Shown here one piece after another: positions 2,823 to 32,989 of a stretch of 64,000 nucleotides of DNA. The position numbers and the translations under genes were made by a program. The number at the start of each line of letters is the position of its first letter. Within the stretch, counting starts at the first letter, position 1. Source of the stretch: Deltaproteobacteria bacterium RIFCSPHIGHO2_02_FULL_40_28 (GTDB taxonomy: Bacteria; UBA10199; 2-12-FULL-40-28); NCBI GenBank assembly GCA_001798135.1, contig MGRJ01000023.1, forward strand, positions 1 to 64,000, given 5' to 3'. The notes below the pieces were generated by a model. That model was not told where the DNA came from, ran no database searches, and saw only the letters and a list, made by a program, of their open reading frames with translations.

Positions 2823-2927
2823 TATCCTGCAGAAGGGCCATCTATCCCGACAAAAATTTTTAAGTTAAGTTCCTTGTCTTTCTAAGGCAAAGGGTTAGGT
2901 TTTGTTTTGACTAGAATTGGGGGGCAC

Positions 2928-5900
2928 ATGAAAATCCAAAGACAATTTACAAAAAAAGGGCATTCACCATACGAGGGTATTTGCTTTACTACCAGACGAT
3001 CGGAAATTAAAAATCCAGATGGGTCTTTTGTTTTCCACATGGATAATGTGGTGGTACCAGAAACTTGGTCTCAAGTAGCAGCAGATGTGCTGGCTCAGAA
3101 ATATTTTCGTAAAACAGGGGTTACTAAAAATCAAAAGCCCGAAAATCTTCATTTTCACAATCAAAGAGAAAATGCCCCAAAAAATACTTCTAAGGAAACC
3201 ACAAGTGAAAATGATGCTCGCCAAGTTTTTCATCGTCTTGCTGGTTGTTGGACTTATTGGGGAGAAAAATACGGTTACTTTGATACCAGTGCCGATGCTG
3301 ATGCTTTTTATGATGAAGTGTGTCGTATGTTGGCTGATCAAATGGGAGCGCCTAATAGTCCACAGTGGTTTAACACAGGGCTTTATTATGCTTATGGTAT
3401 TTCAGGTAAGTCACAAGGCCATTACTATGTAGATCCTAAAACAGAACAACTTACACGCTCACAAAATGCTTATGAACGTCCACAACCTCATGCTTGTTTT
3501 ATTCAATCGGTTACCGATGATTTGGTAAACGAAGGTGGCATTATGGATTTATGGACCAAAGAAGCTCGTCTTTTTAAATATGGCTCGGGCACTGGTTCTA
3601 ATTTTAGTGCCATCCGTGGACGTGGTGAAAAACTATCCGGCGGTGGTCAATCTTCGGGCTTGATGAGTTTTTTGCAAATTGGTGATCGAGCTGCTGGTGC
3701 TATTAAATCTGGTGGAACCACACGCCGTGCTGCCAAGATGGTTATTGTAGATATCAATCATCCAGATATTCAAGATTTTATTAATTGGAAGGTAGTAGAA
3801 GAACAAAAAGTTGCGGCTCTTGTTACGGGTTCTCGCTTATGTGAAAAACATCTCAATTTAATTATACAAGCTTGTCACGATGCTGATATGCAACATTTAA
3901 AAGAAGATCGTTTCGAGCCCAAAAAAAATGCCAAGCTTAAAGATGCCATTGCTGAAGCAAGAAATTGTGAGCTTCCTTTAAATTATATTTATCGTGTGAT
4001 TCAATACGCTCGCCAAGGATTTACAGGAATTCAATTTAAAAGTTACAATACTGAATGGACTTCTGAGGCCTATCACACTGTATCAGGGCAAAATTCAAAC
4101 AACTCTGTTCGTCTCACAAACGATTTTATGCAAGCAGTTTTGAAAAACCAAGATTGGAATTTAGTAAGCCGTACATCGAATAAAATCATTAAAACTGTGA
4201 AGGCCAAAGAATTATGGGACGAAATTTCATATGCGGCTTGGTCTTGTGCTGATCCGGGTTTACAATTTGATACCACTATTAACGAATGGCACACTTGTCC
4301 TCAAGGCGGGAGAATCAATGCCAGCAATCCTTGCGTAACGGGAGACACGCTTGTGGCAACAGATGTAGGGTGGCAGCGCATTGATGCCCTGGTTGGCAAG
4401 AGTGCAAATGTGATTGGTGCAGACGGAGTTCCCCATTTTGTAACCAAAATTTTTTCAACGGGAAACAAGCTCGTTTTTCGTCTGCGGACAAAAGCGGGTT
4501 ACGAAGTGAGAATCACCGACAATCACCGGGTATTAACTCTGGAACGGGGCGATGTTCCTGTATCCGAGCTCACTGTTGGGGAGCATTTAAAATTGCAAGG
4601 CCCTGGTTTTGGAAGAGCAGCTCTTCCAGAAAGGTTGGCTCTAGGTATTGGTGTTGCCGTGGGAGATGGTTGTTTAACCAGATCTTATGCCGGGGGTCGA
4701 TGTGAAGAAATTATCATTTTGACCATGAGTCGTGAAGAGGCCCCCATTCTTCAAACCATTGCGGGTGAGGTGAATGAGCAGAAACGTTTCTTGCGTGTAG
4801 CTGGTATGGCCGGAAATCCGCAAATTGTGACTGTTAATGAGGAAGGTTCGCAGAGAACATCCCGCTTAAGTTTTGCTACTCAATCCGTTGTTGATCTGTT
4901 TAAGGAATATACCGTTTTGGATGAGGGAAGTGATCGCAAAAGGTTTCATCCAGCAATTTTTGAACTAGACCGCCCTTCTTTGGCGGCCGTGCTCCGTGGA
5001 CTTTTTACGGCGGATGGCACCGTTGCCAATTATGGTGAAAAAAGCCAGTATGTTTCCCTCGATTCTTCTTCCCTAGAGCTATTACGACAGGTACAGCTTC
5101 TGCTTCTCTCCTTTGGCATCAAGTCGAAACTTTATCAGAACCGACGAGCTGGAAAAAATGAGGCTCTTCTTCCGGATGGAAATGGAGGGCTTCGTTCTTA
5201 TCCCGTTTGTGAAATGCATTCCCTGCGTTTAAGCCGTGTTTCCCGAATCATTTTTGAAAGAGAAATCGGTTTTGATGCCCAGAGCCGAAAGACAGCCACT
5301 TTGCGCGAACTCAACGAAAAAATTGGCACCTATCGAGATGATTTGACTGATGTGATTACATCCATTGAGTCCATTGGAGAAGAGGCTGTTTTTGATCTCA
5401 CAGAGCCAGTTACCTCCCACTTTGTGGCCAATGGTCTCGTGGTTCATAATTGTTCAGAGTACATGTTTTTAGATGATACAGCTTGTAATTTAGCTTCACT
5501 TAATTTGATGAAATTTTATGATGTGGATAAAAAAGCATTTCTCATCAACAATTATCTTCATGCCACCAGATTATGGACCATCATTTTAGAAATTTCTGTT
5601 TTGATGGCTCAGTTTCCCAGCCAGCAAATTGCTGTTAAAACCCATGAGTACAGAACATTGGGTCTTGGCTATGCCAACTTGGGTGCTCTTTTAATGGTGA
5701 TGGGCATTCCTTATGATAGTAGGAAAGGCCGCGCCATTGCAGGGGCCCTAACGGCTATTTTGTGTGGTGAGTCTTATGCAACGAGCAGCGAGCTAGCCCA
5801 TGAACTAGGAGCTTTTCCAAAATTTACTGAAAATAAAAATGATATGTTGCGTGTAATTCGTAATCATCGCCGGGCAAGTTTTGATGCTAAACCCGAAGAG

Positions 5901-7622
5901 TACGAGGCGCTTTCTATATTGCCCATTGGAATCGATGAAGAATTTTGTCCAGGTTCTCTTTTGGAAACAGCAAGAAAATGTTGGGACCAAGCCCTGATTC
6001 AGGGTGAAAAATATGGTTTTCGCAATGCGCAAACTACAGTGATTGCTCCTACCGGCACCATTGGATTGGTGATGGATTGTGATACCACAGGCATTGAGCC
6101 CGATTTTGCCTTGGTGAAATTTAAAAAATTAGCGGGGGGTGGTTATTTTAAAATTATCAATCAAAGTGTACCACCAGCCTTGGAAACTTTAGGTTATAGC
6201 AAACAGCAGATCCAAGATATTGTTAATTATTGTCGTGGTTCAGGAACTTTAAAAGAATCTCCCGAAATTAATCATGAGAGCTTAAAAAAATATGGTTTTA
6301 CTGATGAAATTTTAGCCAAGGTAGAAGCTCAATTGTTAAGTGCATTTGATATTACTTTTGTGTTTAACAAATGGAATTTGGGAGAGAAATTTTTTGAAAC
6401 CTTGGGCATTTCAGAAGAAATTTATAATAATCCCACCTTTAATTTTTTGCGCCATTTGGGTTTTACGCCAGAACAAATTACCAAAGCTAACGATTATTGT
6501 TGTGGGACCATGACCATTGAAGGAGCGCCGCATCTTAAGGCAGAACATCTCCCTATTTTTGATTGTGCCAATAAGTGTGGAAAATATGGCAAACGTTTTA
6601 TCAAAGCAGATGCCCACATCGAAATGATGGCAGCAGCCCAGCCTTTTATTTCGGGAGCTATTTCTAAAACCATTAATATGCCACATGAGGCCACCATTTC
6701 TGATGTGCAAAATGCCTATCTTAAATCGTGGGGGATGATGATTAAGGCCAATGCTTTGTATCGTGATGGTTCTAAACTTTCTCAACCCCTTAATTCGGTG
6801 GCTAACGAGCTTTATGATGAAATTAAAGCTTCTGAACAAGAAGAGGCCCATCCAAACTCTCATCAAATCATCGAAAAAGTGATCTATCGGTATCTGTCCA
6901 AAAGAAGGATCCTTCCCAGCAGACGTAGTGGTTACACGCAAAAGGCCGAGGTGGGAGGACACAAAGTTTATTTGCGCACGGGCCAGTTTCAAGATGGATC
7001 TCTGGGCGAAATCTTTTTAGATATGCACAAAGAAGGAGCTGCTTTCAGAAGTCTCATGAACTGCTTTGCAATCGCAGTTTCCATTGGGCTTCAGTACGGA
7101 GTGCCATTAGAAGAATTTGTCGAAGCTTTTACCTTCACCCGCTTTGAGCCTAATGGCATGGTGAAGGGCCACGATAACATCAAAATGGCGACTTCGGTTA
7201 TTGATTATATTTTTCGTGAACTCGCCATGAACTACTTAGGTCGTTATGATTTGGTGCATGTAAATCCAGAAGACTTACGAAACGATGCGGTTAAAAAACC
7301 AGAAGCTGACTTTGAAGAAGAGGAAGTGGTTGCTATTCGCAAAATACCAGCAACAACTTATAGCGCAGGAGATGGTACTCAAATGGAAGTAGGAGGCACT
7401 GCCGTTGTTGTTTCCGGATCAGAAGCGTTAGCTGCTAAAAAGGTACCCCTTACCTACAAGGGGATTATGAAAGATTTTGATGTAGCTACCAACAAACTCT
7501 ATCAAGCTAAACTCAAAGGCTATGAAGGGGATCCCTGCCCTGAATGTGGCCAAATGACCCTGGTACGCAATGGGAGTTGTTTAAAATGCGACTCGTGCGG
7601 TGGAACCACGGGATGTTCTTAA
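2928..7622 (+). CDS. nrdJ: B12-dependent ribonucleotide reductase NrdJ with intein
   Basis: Class II ribonucleotide reductase, which uses adenosylcobalamin to reduce ribonucleoside di- or triphosphates to deoxynucleotides. The 1564-residue precursor carries a 373-residue intein at residues 469-841, leaving a mature enzyme of about 1191 residues. The N-terminus ([27 protein letters not shown]), the active-site NPC-SEY, the [14 protein letters not shown] motif and the C-terminal CPECGQ...[11 protein letters not shown] redox tail are characteristic of long NrdJ. ATG 2928 matches the family start; a TTG seven codons earlier is open but has a poorer ribosome site. A promoter with two NrdR-like boxes lies upstream. 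The gene is monocistronic. The intein interrupts right at an active-site cysteine, so splicing is needed for activity. Confidence 0.95.
4332..5450 (+). mobile_element. Intein with LAGLIDADG endonuclease in NrdJ
   Basis: The insert begins with Cys (CVTGDTLV, block A) and ends with VVHN before an extein Cys, the classic splice junctions. Block B is present as VRITDNH, and the C-terminal blocks as [16 protein letters not shown]. The centre carries two LAGLIDADG-type motifs with acidic ends ([10 protein letters not shown] and LRGLFTADG), so the homing endonuclease looks intact. The +1 residue is the enzyme's own NPC cysteine, a known insertion point for inteins in ribonucleotide reductases. The DNA looks richer in G+C than the flanking nrdJ sequence, consistent with horizontal arrival. 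Confidence 0.92.
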
Positions 7623-26475: not shown

Positions 26476-26706
26476 ATGTTAGGTGTTCGGTTAGATGCAG
26501 CCCTCGATAAGGAGCTTACCTCCTTCCTTAAAAAATCGAAGAGAAAACGAAGTGATGTGGTTAAAGAAGCCTTAAGGCAATACTTGCTTCAAAGATTAGA
26601 AGAAGACTGGCATGATCGTAAAACCATCCAGGCTTGGGAGTCTATTTCGCTTGGGCGCATGGTTTCGTTAAAAGAGGTTGATGAGTACTTGAAAACCTGG
26701 GAATAG
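26476..26706 (+). CDS. Ribbon-helix-helix antitoxin
   Basis: A 76-residue CopG/ParD-like protein. The N-terminal strand MLGVRLDAALDKELTSFLKK and helix SDVVKEALRQYLLQ form the ribbon-helix-helix DNA-binding fold; the C-terminal half should wrap the toxin. It is followed after three bases by the ParE/RelE-like toxin gene. Direct repeats just upstream likely serve as its operator. There is no Shine-Dalgarno site, so translation may start from a short leader. Confidence 0.88.
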   Translation: MLGVRLDAALDKELTSFLKKSKRKRSDVVKEALRQYLLQRLEEDWHDRKTIQAWESISLGRMVSLKEVDEYLKTWE

Positions 26707-26709
26707 CGA

Positions 26710-27006
26710 ATGCAGTTATTTTTTGCCTCTTCTGCCTTAGAAGATCTCAATAGAATTTACGCCTTTGTAAAAGTAACCTATCCTAAAGCTGTTAAACTGG
26801 CAGCAAAACGACTTTATTATGGATTTAATTCTTTAAAAAAATATCCAGAACTGGGATATCCTTTGTTTCATTTAGGGAAAAATTTTAGGGAATTTTTAGT
26901 GCCTTTTGGAAAAGGAAACTACATTATTCGATACCGGGTTTTAAAGAAAAAGTTATTTGTTCTTCATCTGTGGCATAATAAAGAAAATCGATTAAGGCAC
27001 TTTTGA
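26710..27006 (+). CDS. ParE/RelE family toxin
   Basis: A 98-residue protein with the ParE/RelE-family fold: SSALEDLNRIYAFV at the start, a long middle helix, then YPELGYP, REFLVPFGKGNYIIRYRV and the terminal strand LFVLHLWHNKENRLRHF. ParE toxins block DNA gyrase, whereas RelE toxins cut ribosome-bound mRNA; sequence alone favours the ParE side. It is paired with the antitoxin gene directly upstream and is part of the accessory zone after tRNA-Leu. Confidence 0.87.
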   Translation: MQLFFASSALEDLNRIYAFVKVTYPKAVKLAAKRLYYGFNSLKKYPELGYPLFHLGKNFREFLVPFGKGNYIIRYRVLKKKLFVLHLWHNKENRLRHF

Positions 27007-27022
27007 AAAAAAGCATGCACTG

Positions 27023-28447
27023 TTATGCTACTCGATTATTTTCTGGTGCAAAGATAATTTTTGGATCTCCCCCATTTTTTATCCAGCTATCATATTTTTG
27101 CATGAGTGCATATCCTTTGGGATCATTTTGCATCCAACGTGCTTTTATTTTTCTAAAGCCATTTGCATATCCTTGATGTAAAGTTACGTAGCCTCCATCG
27201 AGTGGAAGATCCAGATCTCCTAGATAGTAAATACTAAAAATCTCAGAAAAATAATCCCTATAATCTGTAATTGCATAGCGGGTTGGAAATTTAAGAATAG
27301 CTTCTGGGTCTGTAAACAAGTTTACGTAGTGTTGTGCTACTAATTTGGCAAATGCTCCAGGGGTTTGCTCTGTATCTTCTGAAACATTCCAGTTCCCACC
27401 CATTTGATTATCAAGATTAAAAAAGGCTCTATGTCCCATTTCATGGAGAAGAGTGTGAGCAGCAGTTAACTGATCATAGTCATCAAAAATGACAATTTCA
27501 TTTTTATTAGTTTTAGTTGAACCTAATATTACTTGGGGTGGATTATTGTCCCATGGATGGTTGTTGTAATATCCTCTTAATTGTTGTCCCCAATTTAGTG
27601 TATAGAAGTTTATTTGAGAACCAACTTTGGATCGTAAATAGGAAGGGATAGCATCCCATGTAATTTTTAAGGCTTCCAATATTTTTGGATTTTCTTGGTT
27701 GGTAAAAAAGTTAGAGGGCAGACCAAATGTGGAATTAACAGGTTTACTCAATGATAAGTCTATAGACTTTAACATGTCATCACCTGTTTCATCTAAGTTA
27801 TCATATTCTGTAAGATCTTCTAAAGGTTCGGTTTCTTCAATGGTTTCTTGAAAGGCTTCGTTTTCTATTTCTCCATCTTGTAAATAAATAATCTTGGCAA
27901 TTTGTTTTTTAATGGGATCAATTTTTATTTTTTCTTCTGGAGGAAGTGTTTCATCATATTCTGCTAAGGAAAGATAAACAATTTCTAAAGGGATATTTTT
28001 TAAAGCGAGTTCAATTTGTTCTATATCTGTTTCTCCGTGATATTTCCAAAAAACTTTTCTACAGCCATATTTAAATTTAAGATCAAAATCAGTAGGACTT
28101 CGGTAATCAACTTTTTTAATTTGAGCTAAATAATCTTTTCCAGGCCTTGTAGACCATTTCATTAATTTCGAAACAGAATTAGCAGGGCGCAAGCCAACTT
28201 CTGCTAAGGATGCAACATAGGTTTCTAAAGTGAATCTATTTTGAAGTGCTGTGAAACGTAATCGATCATAAAAATTTAAAACTTGAAAAGCTTGGGGCCA
28301 AAGTATCCAAGGTATGAATTCATCTCTCTCAAGTGTTGTAATAACTCCATCCCCTTCAAAGAGAGTTTGTTCTAGTTTTTTGAATTCTCTATGGGTGAGT
28401 AGAGGATCATCCAAGAGCTGTCTTAGTTTTCCAATGAGAATAGCCAT
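27023..28447 (-). CDS. Gluzincin-like metallopeptidase, short paralog
   Basis: A 474-residue protein. Residues 20-95 form a domain shared with the 1008-residue protein at 30-33 kb (acidic loop EGDGVITTLERDEF, then YDRLRFTALQNRFTLETY). Residues 190-225 are a very acidic linker. The catalytic region has HEMGH at 335-339 and a downstream Glu402 in DYFSEIFSIYYLG, the zinc-ligand layout of gluzincins such as lethal-factor-like peptidases. No signal peptide is visible, so it is cytoplasmic or uses another export route. It is divergent from the caspase-like gene. Family membership beyond the zinc motif is inference. Confidence 0.7.
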   Translation of the reverse strand: MAILIGKLRQLLDDPLLTHREFKKLEQTLFEGDGVITTLERDEFIPWILWPQAFQVLNFYDRLRFTALQNRFTLETYVASLAEVGLRPANSVSKLMKWSTRPGKDYLAQIKKVDYRSPTDFDLKFKYGCRKVFWKYHGETDIEQIELALKNIPLEIVYLSLAEYDETLPPEEKIKIDPIKKQIAKIIYLQDGEIENEAFQETIEETEPLEDLTEYDNLDETGDDMLKSIDLSLSKPVNSTFGLPSNFFTNQENPKILEALKITWDAIPSYLRSKVGSQINFYTLNWGQQLRGYYNNHPWDNNPPQVILGSTKTNKNEIVIFDDYDQLTAAHTLLHEMGHRAFFNLDNQMGGNWNVSEDTEQTPGAFAKLVAQHYVNLFTDPEAILKFPTRYAITDYRDYFSEIFSIYYLGDLDLPLDGGYVTLHQGYANGFRKIKARWMQNDPKGYALMQKYDSWIKNGGDPKIIFAPENNRVA

Positions 28448-28582: not shown

Positions 28583-29331
28583 ATGACAAGCATATATGGC
28601 CCCCCTCCAAATCCAGTAGAAAAATACGCTCTTCTTATTAATGGTAGCTCTGCATCGGTAGATATACAAGCAGTAGATAAGATAATCGATCGCTTAGTAT
28701 CGTTGGATAGGGACTATGATATATATGTTGTAAGTACGGCATACCCAAAAACTTAGGGGTGGATCATTATTTTTCTGCAACAACAGATCAATTGTATCAG
28801 GCAATTCAAGAAATTAAACAAAAAGTAGATCGTGATGATCAAATTGTGGTTTATACCTTTGGTCATGGTGGTGCAGGAAGTATTCCTTGTCTTCAGGATA
28901 GTTGTAATTATGATTGGTTTGTTCCGGAGCTGAATTCTATGGTTTATGGGAGTCGTGCTATTGTTTTAACAGGGTGTTATAGTGGAGATGCAAAAAATGA
29001 TTTTTTAAATCAATCAGCAACACTATTTGCTTCAACTGGATGTCCTGGCGAAATTACTTATGGTAGTTTATATCACGATTATTTTTGGACTGAAATGAAA
29101 AACCTATATCATAATAATCCATTTTATCAGCCAGCTTTTCTTACTCGATGTTTTTATGCTCAAAGTCAGTTTCGATCAATGGTAAACACTTGGGAATATG
29201 CTTCTGTACCAATTTGTGAAGTAAGCGCCGATTATTTTTTGGTAATGGAACGTGCTGCAGAGGCAGAAATGAGAAGATTAGAATCCAACCCCTATGCCAG
29301 GGGGCTAATACAAAAAATAAAACCAAGATAG
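28583..29331 (+). pseudogene. Caspase/C13-like cysteine peptidase with frameshift
   Basis: Two frames together encode one 249-residue peptidase. From ATG 28583 the first frame gives EKYALLINGSSAS...DYDIYVVSTAYPK and stops at TAG 28754-28756. The -1 frame continues as NLGVDHYFSATTDQLYQA up to 29331. The joined protein has the caspase-like dyad: His95 in VVYTFGHGG and Cys132 in VLTGCYSGD, each after a hydrophobic strand. At the junction, 28744-28750 reads C CCA AAA, a textbook -1 slippery heptamer. The gene could be a pseudogene, a sequencing error in a C or A run, or expressed by programmed frameshifting. It lies between the two metallopeptidase genes. Confidence 0.65.
28744..28750 (+). promoter_or_regulatory. 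Possible -1 slippery site
   Basis: C CCA AAA in zero frame fits X XXY YYZ. Slippage moves the ribosome into the frame that encodes the rest of the peptidase, four bases before the zero-frame stop. Confidence 0.35.
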
Positions 29332-29386
29332 TATCCTCGTATCAAATAGATTTTTTCAAATAAGGAAATAAGCGCAGTAATAATTT

Positions 29387-29764
29387 TTATTTATCCCCCC
29401 TCCCTTGAGGGGAGGGGGTTGGGGGAGGGTGACCAAAACAAACTAAATAAATTTGTTCTAAAACTATTTCTCTATTTTCATAAAACTCATGATTCCAAAA
29501 CCGTAAAATCTTATACTTTTCTTTTTTTAACCATTGATCCCTATTTTGATCTTTTTCCTTTTGCTCAGCATGTTGTCCCCCATCTAGCTCAATAATAATA
29601 AGCTTCTCAAGACATACGAAATCTACAATATAGGGCCCAATGGGATGTTGTCTTCTAAACTTAAGCCCATAGAAACGTTTAGCTCTTAAAAAATACCAGA
29701 GGTCCTTTTCTGTTTCTGTGTTTTTTATTCTTAATTCTTTTGCAAACGAAATGGATGAGCCCAA
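29387..29764 (-). CDS. DUF559 endonuclease-like protein
   Basis: A 125-residue protein of the DUF559/Vsr-like nuclease fold: RAKRFYGLKFRRQHPIGPY, then VDFVCLEKLIIIELDGGQH with the Asp and Glu expected of a PD-(D/E)xK-type active site, and the C-terminal WNHEFYENRE. The TTG start is preceded by a G-rich stretch that belongs to a flanking repeat. The last residues (PPPTPSPQGRG) are encoded by the opposite flanking copy. Gene plus repeats make a 416-base unit. The biological role of such solitary DUF559 proteins is not established. Confidence 0.82.
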   Translation of the reverse strand: MGSSISFAKELRIKNTETEKDLWYFLRAKRFYGLKFRRQHPIGPYIVDFVCLEKLIIIELDGGQHAEQKEKDQNRDQWLKKEKYKILRFWNHEFYENREIVLEQIYLVCFGHPPPTPSPQGRGDK

Positions 29765-29810
29765 AGAATCACCCTCTCCCTAACCCTCCCCCCTCAAGGG
29801 GGAGGGGGTA
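29395..29810. repeat. Inverted palindromic repeats flanking the DUF559 gene
   Basis: Left copy 29395-29432 (CCCCCCTCCCTTGAGGGG then GGGTTGGGGGAGGGTGA) and right copy 29769-29810 (its near reverse complement) bracket the gene tightly and encode its last codons and leader. This looks like a short mobile cassette. Confidence 0.6.
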
Positions 29811-29908
29811 AGAAAGAAACATAATGTTTCCAAATGGTAAAGTTAATCAAGAAATTTTTTTAAATGCACATTTGTGTTTTTTAATTTTGAAATTGTAGTG
29901 ATGAATGG

Positions 29909-29962: not shown

Positions 29963-32900
29963 TTAACTTAAATAAATGGTTTTAAGGTGGGTGTATTGTT
30001 CGTTTTCAGAACCACTTTTTTCTTTGTTTTCGAGATAGGCAACCCAAGTTCTTACCTCTACCTGAAGGGCTGCAAAGGCTTCTGGAGCTTCGGATTTTAA
30101 TTTATCAATTACTGAGATATCCCCTTCTATTTTAAGTTCTTCTAACCTTTTAGAAAGACTATAAAATGCAGAATGATCTTTTTTAATGAGATCAACAAGA
30201 AGGGTTCCTAGTTTTTGATATTGGTGTGAATGAGCATAAAATTGACCTAGGGTGTAAACCTGCATTGTTTGTTTATTGGATGCTTGAACGAAGTAGTCTT
30301 CGGCTAATTTTACATCTTTACTTGCTTGATTATTTTGTGGATCTTGTGATCGTTTAAAATAAAATATTCCATAACTTCTTAACATGCCACCATCTGCTGG
30401 GTCCAATTCAAGTTCATCTAGTTTTTTAAGATAAGCCAAAGCCTCATCCCATTTTTTTTCTGCCATTGCAACTTGGAAGGCCCATTCTTGAAAAAGTGGT
30501 GATTGAGGATGAGCCTCTGCTAGTTGATAAACGAGGGGGTATTCAAAATTTGTTTCAGTATTTTCTTTTTCTAAATTTCCCAGATTTAAAATTGGAATTT
30601 TGAGTGCAAGAAATAATTGAATACTTTGATCATGGGGATTTTTGAGGATTAATTGTTTTATAATCTCCCAAGCTTGGGAGCGTCCTGGATCATCAGTGGG
30701 AGATAAATCTAAAATAAGGAGGGCATAATCTCTTAATGCTGGATAAAAATGGGTTTCAGAATAAAGCTGATGCAAGGGCCCGTATTGCACTATAGCAGAT
30801 AATGTTTTAATTTCTTGATACCGAGTTTCAGTAGCGCTTGTTTCAAAGTTGGTATCGGGATAACTTTGAGCTACTTGTTCTAAGTTTGTCCAGCTCAGAT
30901 CGGTTTGTCCTTGTTGTAAGGAGGCATCAACTAAATTAGCTCCTCCCCAAGTAAAGGCTTTTTCTGGTGTTCCTTCCTTCCAATAGTGATCAAAAAGATT
31001 CATAAGCCCCTGGTAGGGTTTTTTAATTGGATTTTCTGTTTCTAAAGTTGTGGAATAAAAAAGAGCAAAGTTTAGAACCCAAGTATCGATTTCAGAAACT
31101 GGAGATAAACTAGCGATCAAGCTTTCTCTTGGTTCTTCTTGTGCAAGTGAATCATAATAATCAATAATATCTTTAAAATCTTCTCCTCCAGTAATGCTAT
31201 CTTCTTGGATGGTGCCACCCTGTTTTGCAATGACCTTAATGGCTATACTATGAGCCAAGCTTTGGAGAGCAATATGTAATTTTTCAGCAGGAGATCCAGA
31301 GATGGCATTGATTACTTTTTCAAAATAAACCCAGCTTGAGTTTTCTTCCACATAATCACGTACTTTTTGTAATCCGAAAGTTTTATCAATGAGATGGAGA
31401 GTAACAGCCGTAGTAAGAGAAGGATGATAAGGATTGGCCTGGTACAGGGCCATTAATTCTGTCTCACGCTCTACAGCACTTTTGGCCATAAGATGCTCTA
31501 CTTGTGTTTGAATAGAGTGATCTACAGGTGTTTCTAACCATGTGGCAACTTGGGCTTCGGTTAATTCGGGATGTAATTTTGCAAATTGAAAAGCAGATGC
31601 ATATAAATCATTTCCAAAAATTTCTGCAGCATTTCCACCATGCTCTAGGTAATAATCAAATTTTGCTATAAGAAGATAACCAACTGGATCTTCACGACGA
31701 AATTCAGCCCTTCTTTGTCTTGGGGAAACTCCACTCCAGTCTGCAAAACAACTACTACCACATTCGGGAGTGTTTTCTAATTTTCCCATTTTATAAATGG
31801 CAAAATTTTCAGCAAACCATTCTTGAGGATCTGTGGCTGCATAGAGGGTAGAAAAATAACGGAGAGGTGGCTTGTTTCCAGTAAAAGGTGGTTGATGGAG
31901 GCTCTCTTTTTTTACCTGACTAAAATGAAGTGAGAAAAGATTAAAAAGACTTCCAGGAAGTTGATTGCCTCCTCCGCATTTTTGATCGACTAAAAAGAAG
32001 GCAGCATGTCCTACTTCATGAATAATGCAATGAATGGCTTCGTAGGCTTTATAGCCTTCTGTAAAATAACCAATTTCAATTTTTTTATCAGAAGTTTGAT
32101 GACAAATTCCAGAAATGGATGTCATGGGTTCAGAAATTGTTTTTTGATCATTGTAATAATCTCGTAAGACATCATCCCAAGATCCATAACGCATAGAAAT
32201 TTGATTTTGATTGAGTAAATCTAAATCTTTTTGAGTTAAAACTTGGTTGGCTAAGGTAAGAGCTTGGGCAGAAGGAATCTCCGTTGTATTTTCGGGGAGA
32301 AATTTTAAAACATCATCAGTCACATCCCGATAGTCAGAATAAACTTCAGCGGGATCTGCTATTTCTTCTTCAGAGTGATCATGTCTTAAATCGATAAGTC
32401 TTGTTTTTAAAGCAATGGCTGCTTCTATTTGGGTAGGAGAATGGCTAGGAGTAGAATCAAAAACTTCCAGAGCAGCAAAGAGATCATAAATACCATAATT
32501 CCCTAATTTAATTTTGATAGAATCATGGTTCTCATTCTCCAAGAGAGTTAGAACAAATTTTTGATCCCCATGGGCATACCAAATTTTCCAGCCTGTTTTT
32601 GTTTTTTTAATTTTATCAAGCGTGAGAAGAACTTCTTCTGTATTTGCCTCACCAGCCAGTTGTTGTAATTTATCTAAGGGATTTTTTGTGGTTAGCCCGT
32701 ATTCTTGCAGAGTTGTTATATAGTGCTCTAAGGTAAAAGCATTGTGCGCGGTTAAGAGTTTTAATCGCCTGTAATCTTCTGTTGATTCAATGGAATAAGA
32801 ACCAGGATGTTGATTTAAACCTTCTAAAAAATCATCAAGTTGGGACAGTTCATTTTTATCAACAACTCCACCCTGGCTAAAAAGCCCAGCTTCTAGATCT

Positions 32901-32989
32901 GTAAATTCAAGCCCTGTGAGTTTATGATCGGCTAGTAAGTAATGAATAAGCGAAAGAGAACCCATCCCTTCTTTATCGACTACTCCCAC
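29963..32989 (-). CDS. Large gluzincin-like protein with helical repeats
   Basis: A 1008-residue protein. Residues 20-105 match the N-terminal domain of the 474-residue paralog (LEFTDLEAGLFSQGGVVDKNELSQL, an EF-hand-like Asp/Asn pattern; then AHNAFTLEHYITTLQEYGL). The zinc site is HEVGH at 324-328, with Glu394 in QEWFAENFAIYKMG as third ligand. From about residue 450 to the end it is all helical, with TPR-like pairs (DYALLILDLSPTDDPGRSQA, AMAEKKWDEALAYLKKLDEL). The start is GTG 32989, or ATG 24 bases downstream; both have poor ribosome sites. No signal peptide is present. It may be a processed effector or a cytoplasmic protease with a scaffold tail. Confidence 0.68.
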   Translation of the reverse strand: MGVVDKEGMGSLSLIHYLLADHKLTGLEFTDLEAGLFSQGGVVDKNELSQLDDFLEGLNQHPGSYSIESTEDYRRLKLLTAHNAFTLEHYITTLQEYGLTTKNPLDKLQQLAGEANTEEVLLTLDKIKKTKTGWKIWYAHGDQKFVLTLLENENHDSIKIKLGNYGIYDLFAALEVFDSTPSHSPTQIEAAIALKTRLIDLRHDHSEEEIADPAEVYSDYRDVTDDVLKFLPENTTEIPSAQALTLANQVLTQKDLDLLNQNQISMRYGSWDDVLRDYYNDQKTISEPMTSISGICHQTSDKKIEIGYFTEGYKAYEAIHCIIHEVGHAAFFLVDQKCGGGNQLPGSLFNLFSLHFSQVKKESLHQPPFTGNKPPLRYFSTLYAATDPQEWFAENFAIYKMGKLENTPECGSSCFADWSGVSPRQRRAEFRREDPVGYLLIAKFDYYLEHGGNAAEIFGNDLYASAFQFAKLHPELTEAQVATWLETPVDHSIQTQVEHLMAKSAVERETELMALYQANPYHPSLTTAVTLHLIDKTFGLQKVRDYVEENSSWVYFEKVINAISGSPAEKLHIALQSLAHSIAIKVIAKQGGTIQEDSITGGEDFKDIIDYYDSLAQEEPRESLIASLSPVSEIDTWVLNFALFYSTTLETENPIKKPYQGLMNLFDHYWKEGTPEKAFTWGGANLVDASLQQGQTDLSWTNLEQVAQSYPDTNFETSATETRYQEIKTLSAIVQYGPLHQLYSETHFYPALRDYALLILDLSPTDDPGRSQAWEIIKQLILKNPHDQSIQLFLALKIPILNLGNLEKENTETNFEYPLVYQLAEAHPQSPLFQEWAFQVAMAEKKWDEALAYLKKLDELELDPADGGMLRSYGIFYFKRSQDPQNNQASKDVKLAEDYFVQASNKQTMQVYTLGQFYAHSHQYQKLGTLLVDLIKKDHSAFYSLSKRLEELKIEGDISVIDKLKSEAPEAFAALQVEVRTWVAYLENKEKSGSENEQYTHLKTIYLS

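Follow-up and report, generated by a model that had tools for sequence, protein, structure and literature searches.

The window analysed here, bases 1–64000 of contig MGRJ01000023.1 (assembly of 2.16 Mb in 31 contigs), contains a clan-CD (legumain/caspase-like) cysteine peptidase gene that is split between two overlapping frames. The split was very probably caused by a non-programmed single-base indel in a C3A5 run. In the proposed sequence of events, a formerly intact peptidase gene of an uncultured deltaproteobacterial lineage would have had its frame broken by a one-base indel in the run at 28744–28751, and translation would now end after 58 codons.

Two overlapping frames of one peptidase gene

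The features of the split gene are as follows.

28583–28756, + strand: zero-frame open reading frame (ORF0), from ATG at 28583 to TAG at 28754–28756, 58 aa; predicted to hold strand 1, helix 1 and strand 2 of the fold and no catalytic residue (profile match, E 4.3e-8, and mapping on the model of a relative)
28720–29331, + strand: -1 frame, stop to stop, matched by the profile as the remainder of the clan-CD peptidase domain
28744–28750, + strand: C CCA AAA heptamer in X XXY YYZ phase, inside the C3A5 run (28744–28751), the likely indel site
28754–28756, + strand: premature TAG of the zero frame
28864–28866, + strand: codon of catalytic His95, in a GHG motif (family alignment)
28975–28977, + strand: codon of catalytic Cys132, in a GCYSG motif (family alignment)

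The -1 frame had 203 sense codons from 28720, or 190 aa counted from its nearest start, GTG 28759. Joined, the two frames read as a 249-aa protein in which His95 and Cys132 both aligned to family-conserved columns. The initial annotation had described the overlapping frames as one caspase-like protein with these two residues, and the homology evidence bore this out. The family profile, built from 19 rows including the split protein itself, matched ORF0 at positions 5–49 (E 4.3e-8) and the -1 frame at positions 48–208 (E 1e-51). The nearest relative (G002; same order, 447 aa, 47% identity) runs in a single frame across the join, where it reads ...PVFPENLGQAEY.... Because the profile covers both frames end to end and the nearest relative is continuous, the two frames encode one protein, and from these alignments the split of one gene is more than chance. 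A search of the same genome with the family profile found no second copy.

The surroundings of the gene were also inspected. The assembly has a single DUF559 gene, an endonuclease-like minus-strand ORF at 29387–29764 (Pfam E 2.4e-40). Imperfect inverted repeats of 41 nt with 78% complementarity enclose it (29384–29818) and start 53 bp past the peptidase stop; ORF and repeats may together form a small mobile element. On either side of the peptidase gene lies a minus-strand ORF with an HExGH motif (27023–28447 and 29963–32989), and the two resemble each other in their N-terminal segments. Both gave only sub-cut-off matches to the Pfam ATLF model (E 0.04–0.07), and from their sequences they look like paralogous metallopeptidase-like proteins. 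A ribbon-helix-helix/ParE toxin–antitoxin pair was seen at 26476–27006. Elsewhere in the window, a ribonucleotide reductase ORF (2907–7622) has an apparent intein, judged from the translation only, with a segment ending in VVHN before CSEYMFLDD.

Protein family and predicted fold

Against the curated models, the joined protein scored slightly below the family cut-offs of Pfam C13 (21.7 bits, cut-off 22.8) and C25 (19.4 bits, cut-off 23). Across the 19 family members, Pfam C13 matched 10 (best E 9.7e-7), C14 matched five, and NCBIfam caspase_w_EACC1 (NF047832) matched 13 (best E 1.9e-8). Compared with solved structures, the family profile matched metacaspase-4 and legumain (E 0.001–0.003). The predicted model of a relative (pLDDT 79, pTM 0.82) had a caspase-like alpha/beta fold, with legumains as the top PDB fold matches (E 7e-5, probability 1.00); the split protein itself was placed on this fold by alignment alone. 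In the joined protein, the catalytic His (HG) and then the Cys follow core strands, which is the order of clan CD. Given the Pfam and NCBIfam matches, the structure profile and the fold match of the relative's model, the predicted assignment as 'caspase-like' holds at clan-CD level, and the nearest solved fold is legumain (C13).

Resemblance to either known group is partial. Legumains share the fold and the His/Cys order and gave the best solved-structure match by both profile (E 0.003) and fold, but identity is ~13%, the split protein lies under the Pfam cut-off, and its relatives bear thioredoxin and HEAT/TPR-like parts. Caspases and metacaspases (C14), together with caspase_w_EACC1, also belong to clan CD and account for the 5/19 and 13/19 matches above, whereas the split gene itself fell far below the NF047832 cut-off (14.1 against 140) and a Pfam C14 search of its genome gave no match.

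Most relatives are longer than the split protein, with the thioredoxin and HEAT or TPR-like parts C-terminal to the peptidase domain. In five of them (L005, L036, L037, L038, L043), the clan-CD domain is joined by a thioredoxin domain, which has WCxPC in several, and by HEAT or TPR-like repeats; EF-hand-like D-x-D/N-x-D-G segments occur between these domains. The split copy ends at residue 249 and the C-terminal half of most relatives is absent; a search downstream of 29331 with the 447-aa relative found no remnant of it. All named relatives came from metagenome assemblies assigned to 'Deltaproteobacteria', and several of these carried a groundwater label. A first scan of the named genomes with the split protein as the query gave no match, and the 19 members aligned together were too diverse to serve as a query; a tighter set found the named relatives.

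The slippery heptamer and the origin of the break

The initial annotation had placed a C CCA AAA heptamer exactly at the break, four bases before the zero-frame stop. The heptamer is indeed in phase at 28744–28750, but the gap to the stop is 3 bases. Like the bacterial -1 programmed frameshift genes dnaX and the IS3-family transposases, the split gene thus has an X XXY YYZ heptamer in the zero frame; unlike them, it showed no conservation of the site, no stimulator that could be found and no conserved two-product arrangement. None of 21 homologues had an in-frame X XXY YYZ heptamer at the aligned place, where the nearest relative reads CCT GAA AAC in one frame, and neither the motif nor the frame arrangement is conserved. 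By the criteria of an E. coli survey (element 6–17 nt upstream; PMC4066793), no Shine–Dalgarno (SD)-like stimulator was present in the 30 bases upstream of the heptamer. Downstream, RNA folding was no better than that of dinucleotide shuffles (z +0.35, -0.43 and -0.18, pseudoknots being outside the model), and there was no Rfam match near the site. Neither class of stimulator was therefore found, although bacterial frameshift sites do not always have one.

We then estimated how often a heptamer would stand beside a break by chance. One-base losses were simulated in intact genes of the window, with the requirement that a -1 shift restore the frame. An in-phase heptamer stood beside the simulated break for 5–10% of random positions and 6–16% of homopolymer or C/A-run positions. 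The 45 intact genes of the window contained 246 in-frame heptamers in 18,388 codons. Because 5–16% of simulated losses give an in-phase heptamer, its presence at the break is only mildly above chance.

These results bear on the suggestion in the initial annotation that programmed frameshifting controls a dangerous protease. Programmed -1 ribosomal frameshifting at C CCA AAA, yielding a limited amount of full peptidase, would account for a motif in exact phase 3 bases ahead of the stop and for a -1 product comprising the full domain and both catalytic residues. The motif is also of a frameshift-prone type: in E. coli, C_CC.A_AA.A shifts at >0.10% without a stimulator (PMC4066793). We nevertheless consider this reading improbable, as the uninterrupted orthologues lack the heptamer and have no need of a shift, no SD-like sequence or downstream structure above shuffles accompanies the site, and simulated losses give the same coincidence in 5–16% of cases. 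The two checks named beforehand, conservation of the slippery site in orthologues and a downstream stimulatory structure, thus both went against it. Since the motif is prone to shift without a stimulator, leaky low-level frameshifting is possible, with no evidence of use; leakage alone does not amount to programming. A lineage-specific, recently evolved -1 frameshift giving a trace level of the caspase/legumain-like peptidase would escape detection, because the nearest relative is only 47% identical, a point that also counts against the preferred reading of a non-programmed indel; we rate such a frameshift as marginally less probable still than the programmed mechanism in general. Least probable is stop–restart coupling, in which ribosomes would end translation at 28754 and begin again at GTG 28759 and the two polypeptides would reassociate. 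The GTG lies two bases after the stop and in the right frame, but it has no well-spaced ribosome-binding site, the arrangement would divide one beta sheet by placing strands 1 and 2 on a separate polypeptide, and no relative has a two-part build.

A non-programmed indel could be a mutation in the cell or an error in the consensus, both of which the initial annotation had raised. Relative to its intact homologues the gene carries a disabling lesion, one mark of a pseudogene. Counting against the preferred reading, the 249 codons show no other damage and keep both catalytic residues, so the break would be of recent date, an error of sequencing, or one that recoding makes tolerable. Singleton frameshifted prokaryotic genes in the GeneTack survey (PMC3711429) share the single break, homology across it and lack of conservation in relatives, and we found no difference between them and the split peptidase; many such singleton breaks validated by homology have been attributed to sequencing error (PMC3711429). 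The homopolymer context, the single break with its otherwise intact frame and catalytic residues, and the origin of all named relatives from metagenome assemblies would fit an intact gene in the cell with a miscounted C3A5 run. This form of the non-programmed indel is a real but lesser prospect, as errors of this kind are less expected in runs as short as 3 and 5 bases and frame breaks are apparently infrequent elsewhere in the assembly. A frame-switch scan of 418 kb of sampled stretches found no second clear split gene, the scan being uncalibrated and having missed the split peptidase itself; visual inspection of its 11 most suspicious junctions showed nearly all of them to be boundaries between genuine neighbouring genes. 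All 16 full-length ABC domains in the assembly were unbroken, and the 45 window genes used for the codon counts were all open. The assembly thus looks clean, which leans toward a real lesion. The earlier readings of a recent pseudogene and of a base error both survive, and we infer a biological lesion: a real mutation, in an accessory gene that is dispensable, has roughly double the probability of a consensus error.

Consequence for the product and loss in relatives

Aligning the split protein to the predicted model of its relative placed the break after strand 2 in the central sheet. Both catalytic residues lie in the downstream frame, which would be without strands 1 and 2, and on this model neither fragment would be expected to fold as a peptidase. 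With the catalytic residues missing from ORF0 and two core strands missing from the downstream frame, active peptidase would be expected at most in the trace amount permitted by a slippery motif without stimulators, pointing to loss of function.

The family was matched in 20 of the 46 genomes of the class, its own genome counted, and none of the other genomes with a relative had a split at the equivalent site. In another genome of the same order (G004), the family gene (L020) is an 84-codon fragment and apparently decayed. Two further members, L008 and L010, have the catalytic Cys replaced (DQN and DQE where DQC is expected), suggesting from their sequences that they are non-catalytic. The family is sporadic, and because of this scattered presence and the decayed copy in the same order, loss of the gene appears to be tolerated. 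The decayed copy and the two members without the catalytic Cys likewise indicate that the family tolerates loss of function.

In an AT-rich genome such as this, finding a slippery heptamer where a frame breaks says little in favour of recoding, because simulated one-base losses left an in-phase motif beside the break in 5–16% of cases. We found no case of a recoded bacterial caspase in the literature; if true, the lineage-specific frameshift would be an unusual recoding control of a potentially self-damaging protease. The split gene also draws attention to a clan-CD peptidase family from deltaproteobacterial metagenome assemblies that carries thioredoxin and repeat domains and is poorly described by the curated models used here.
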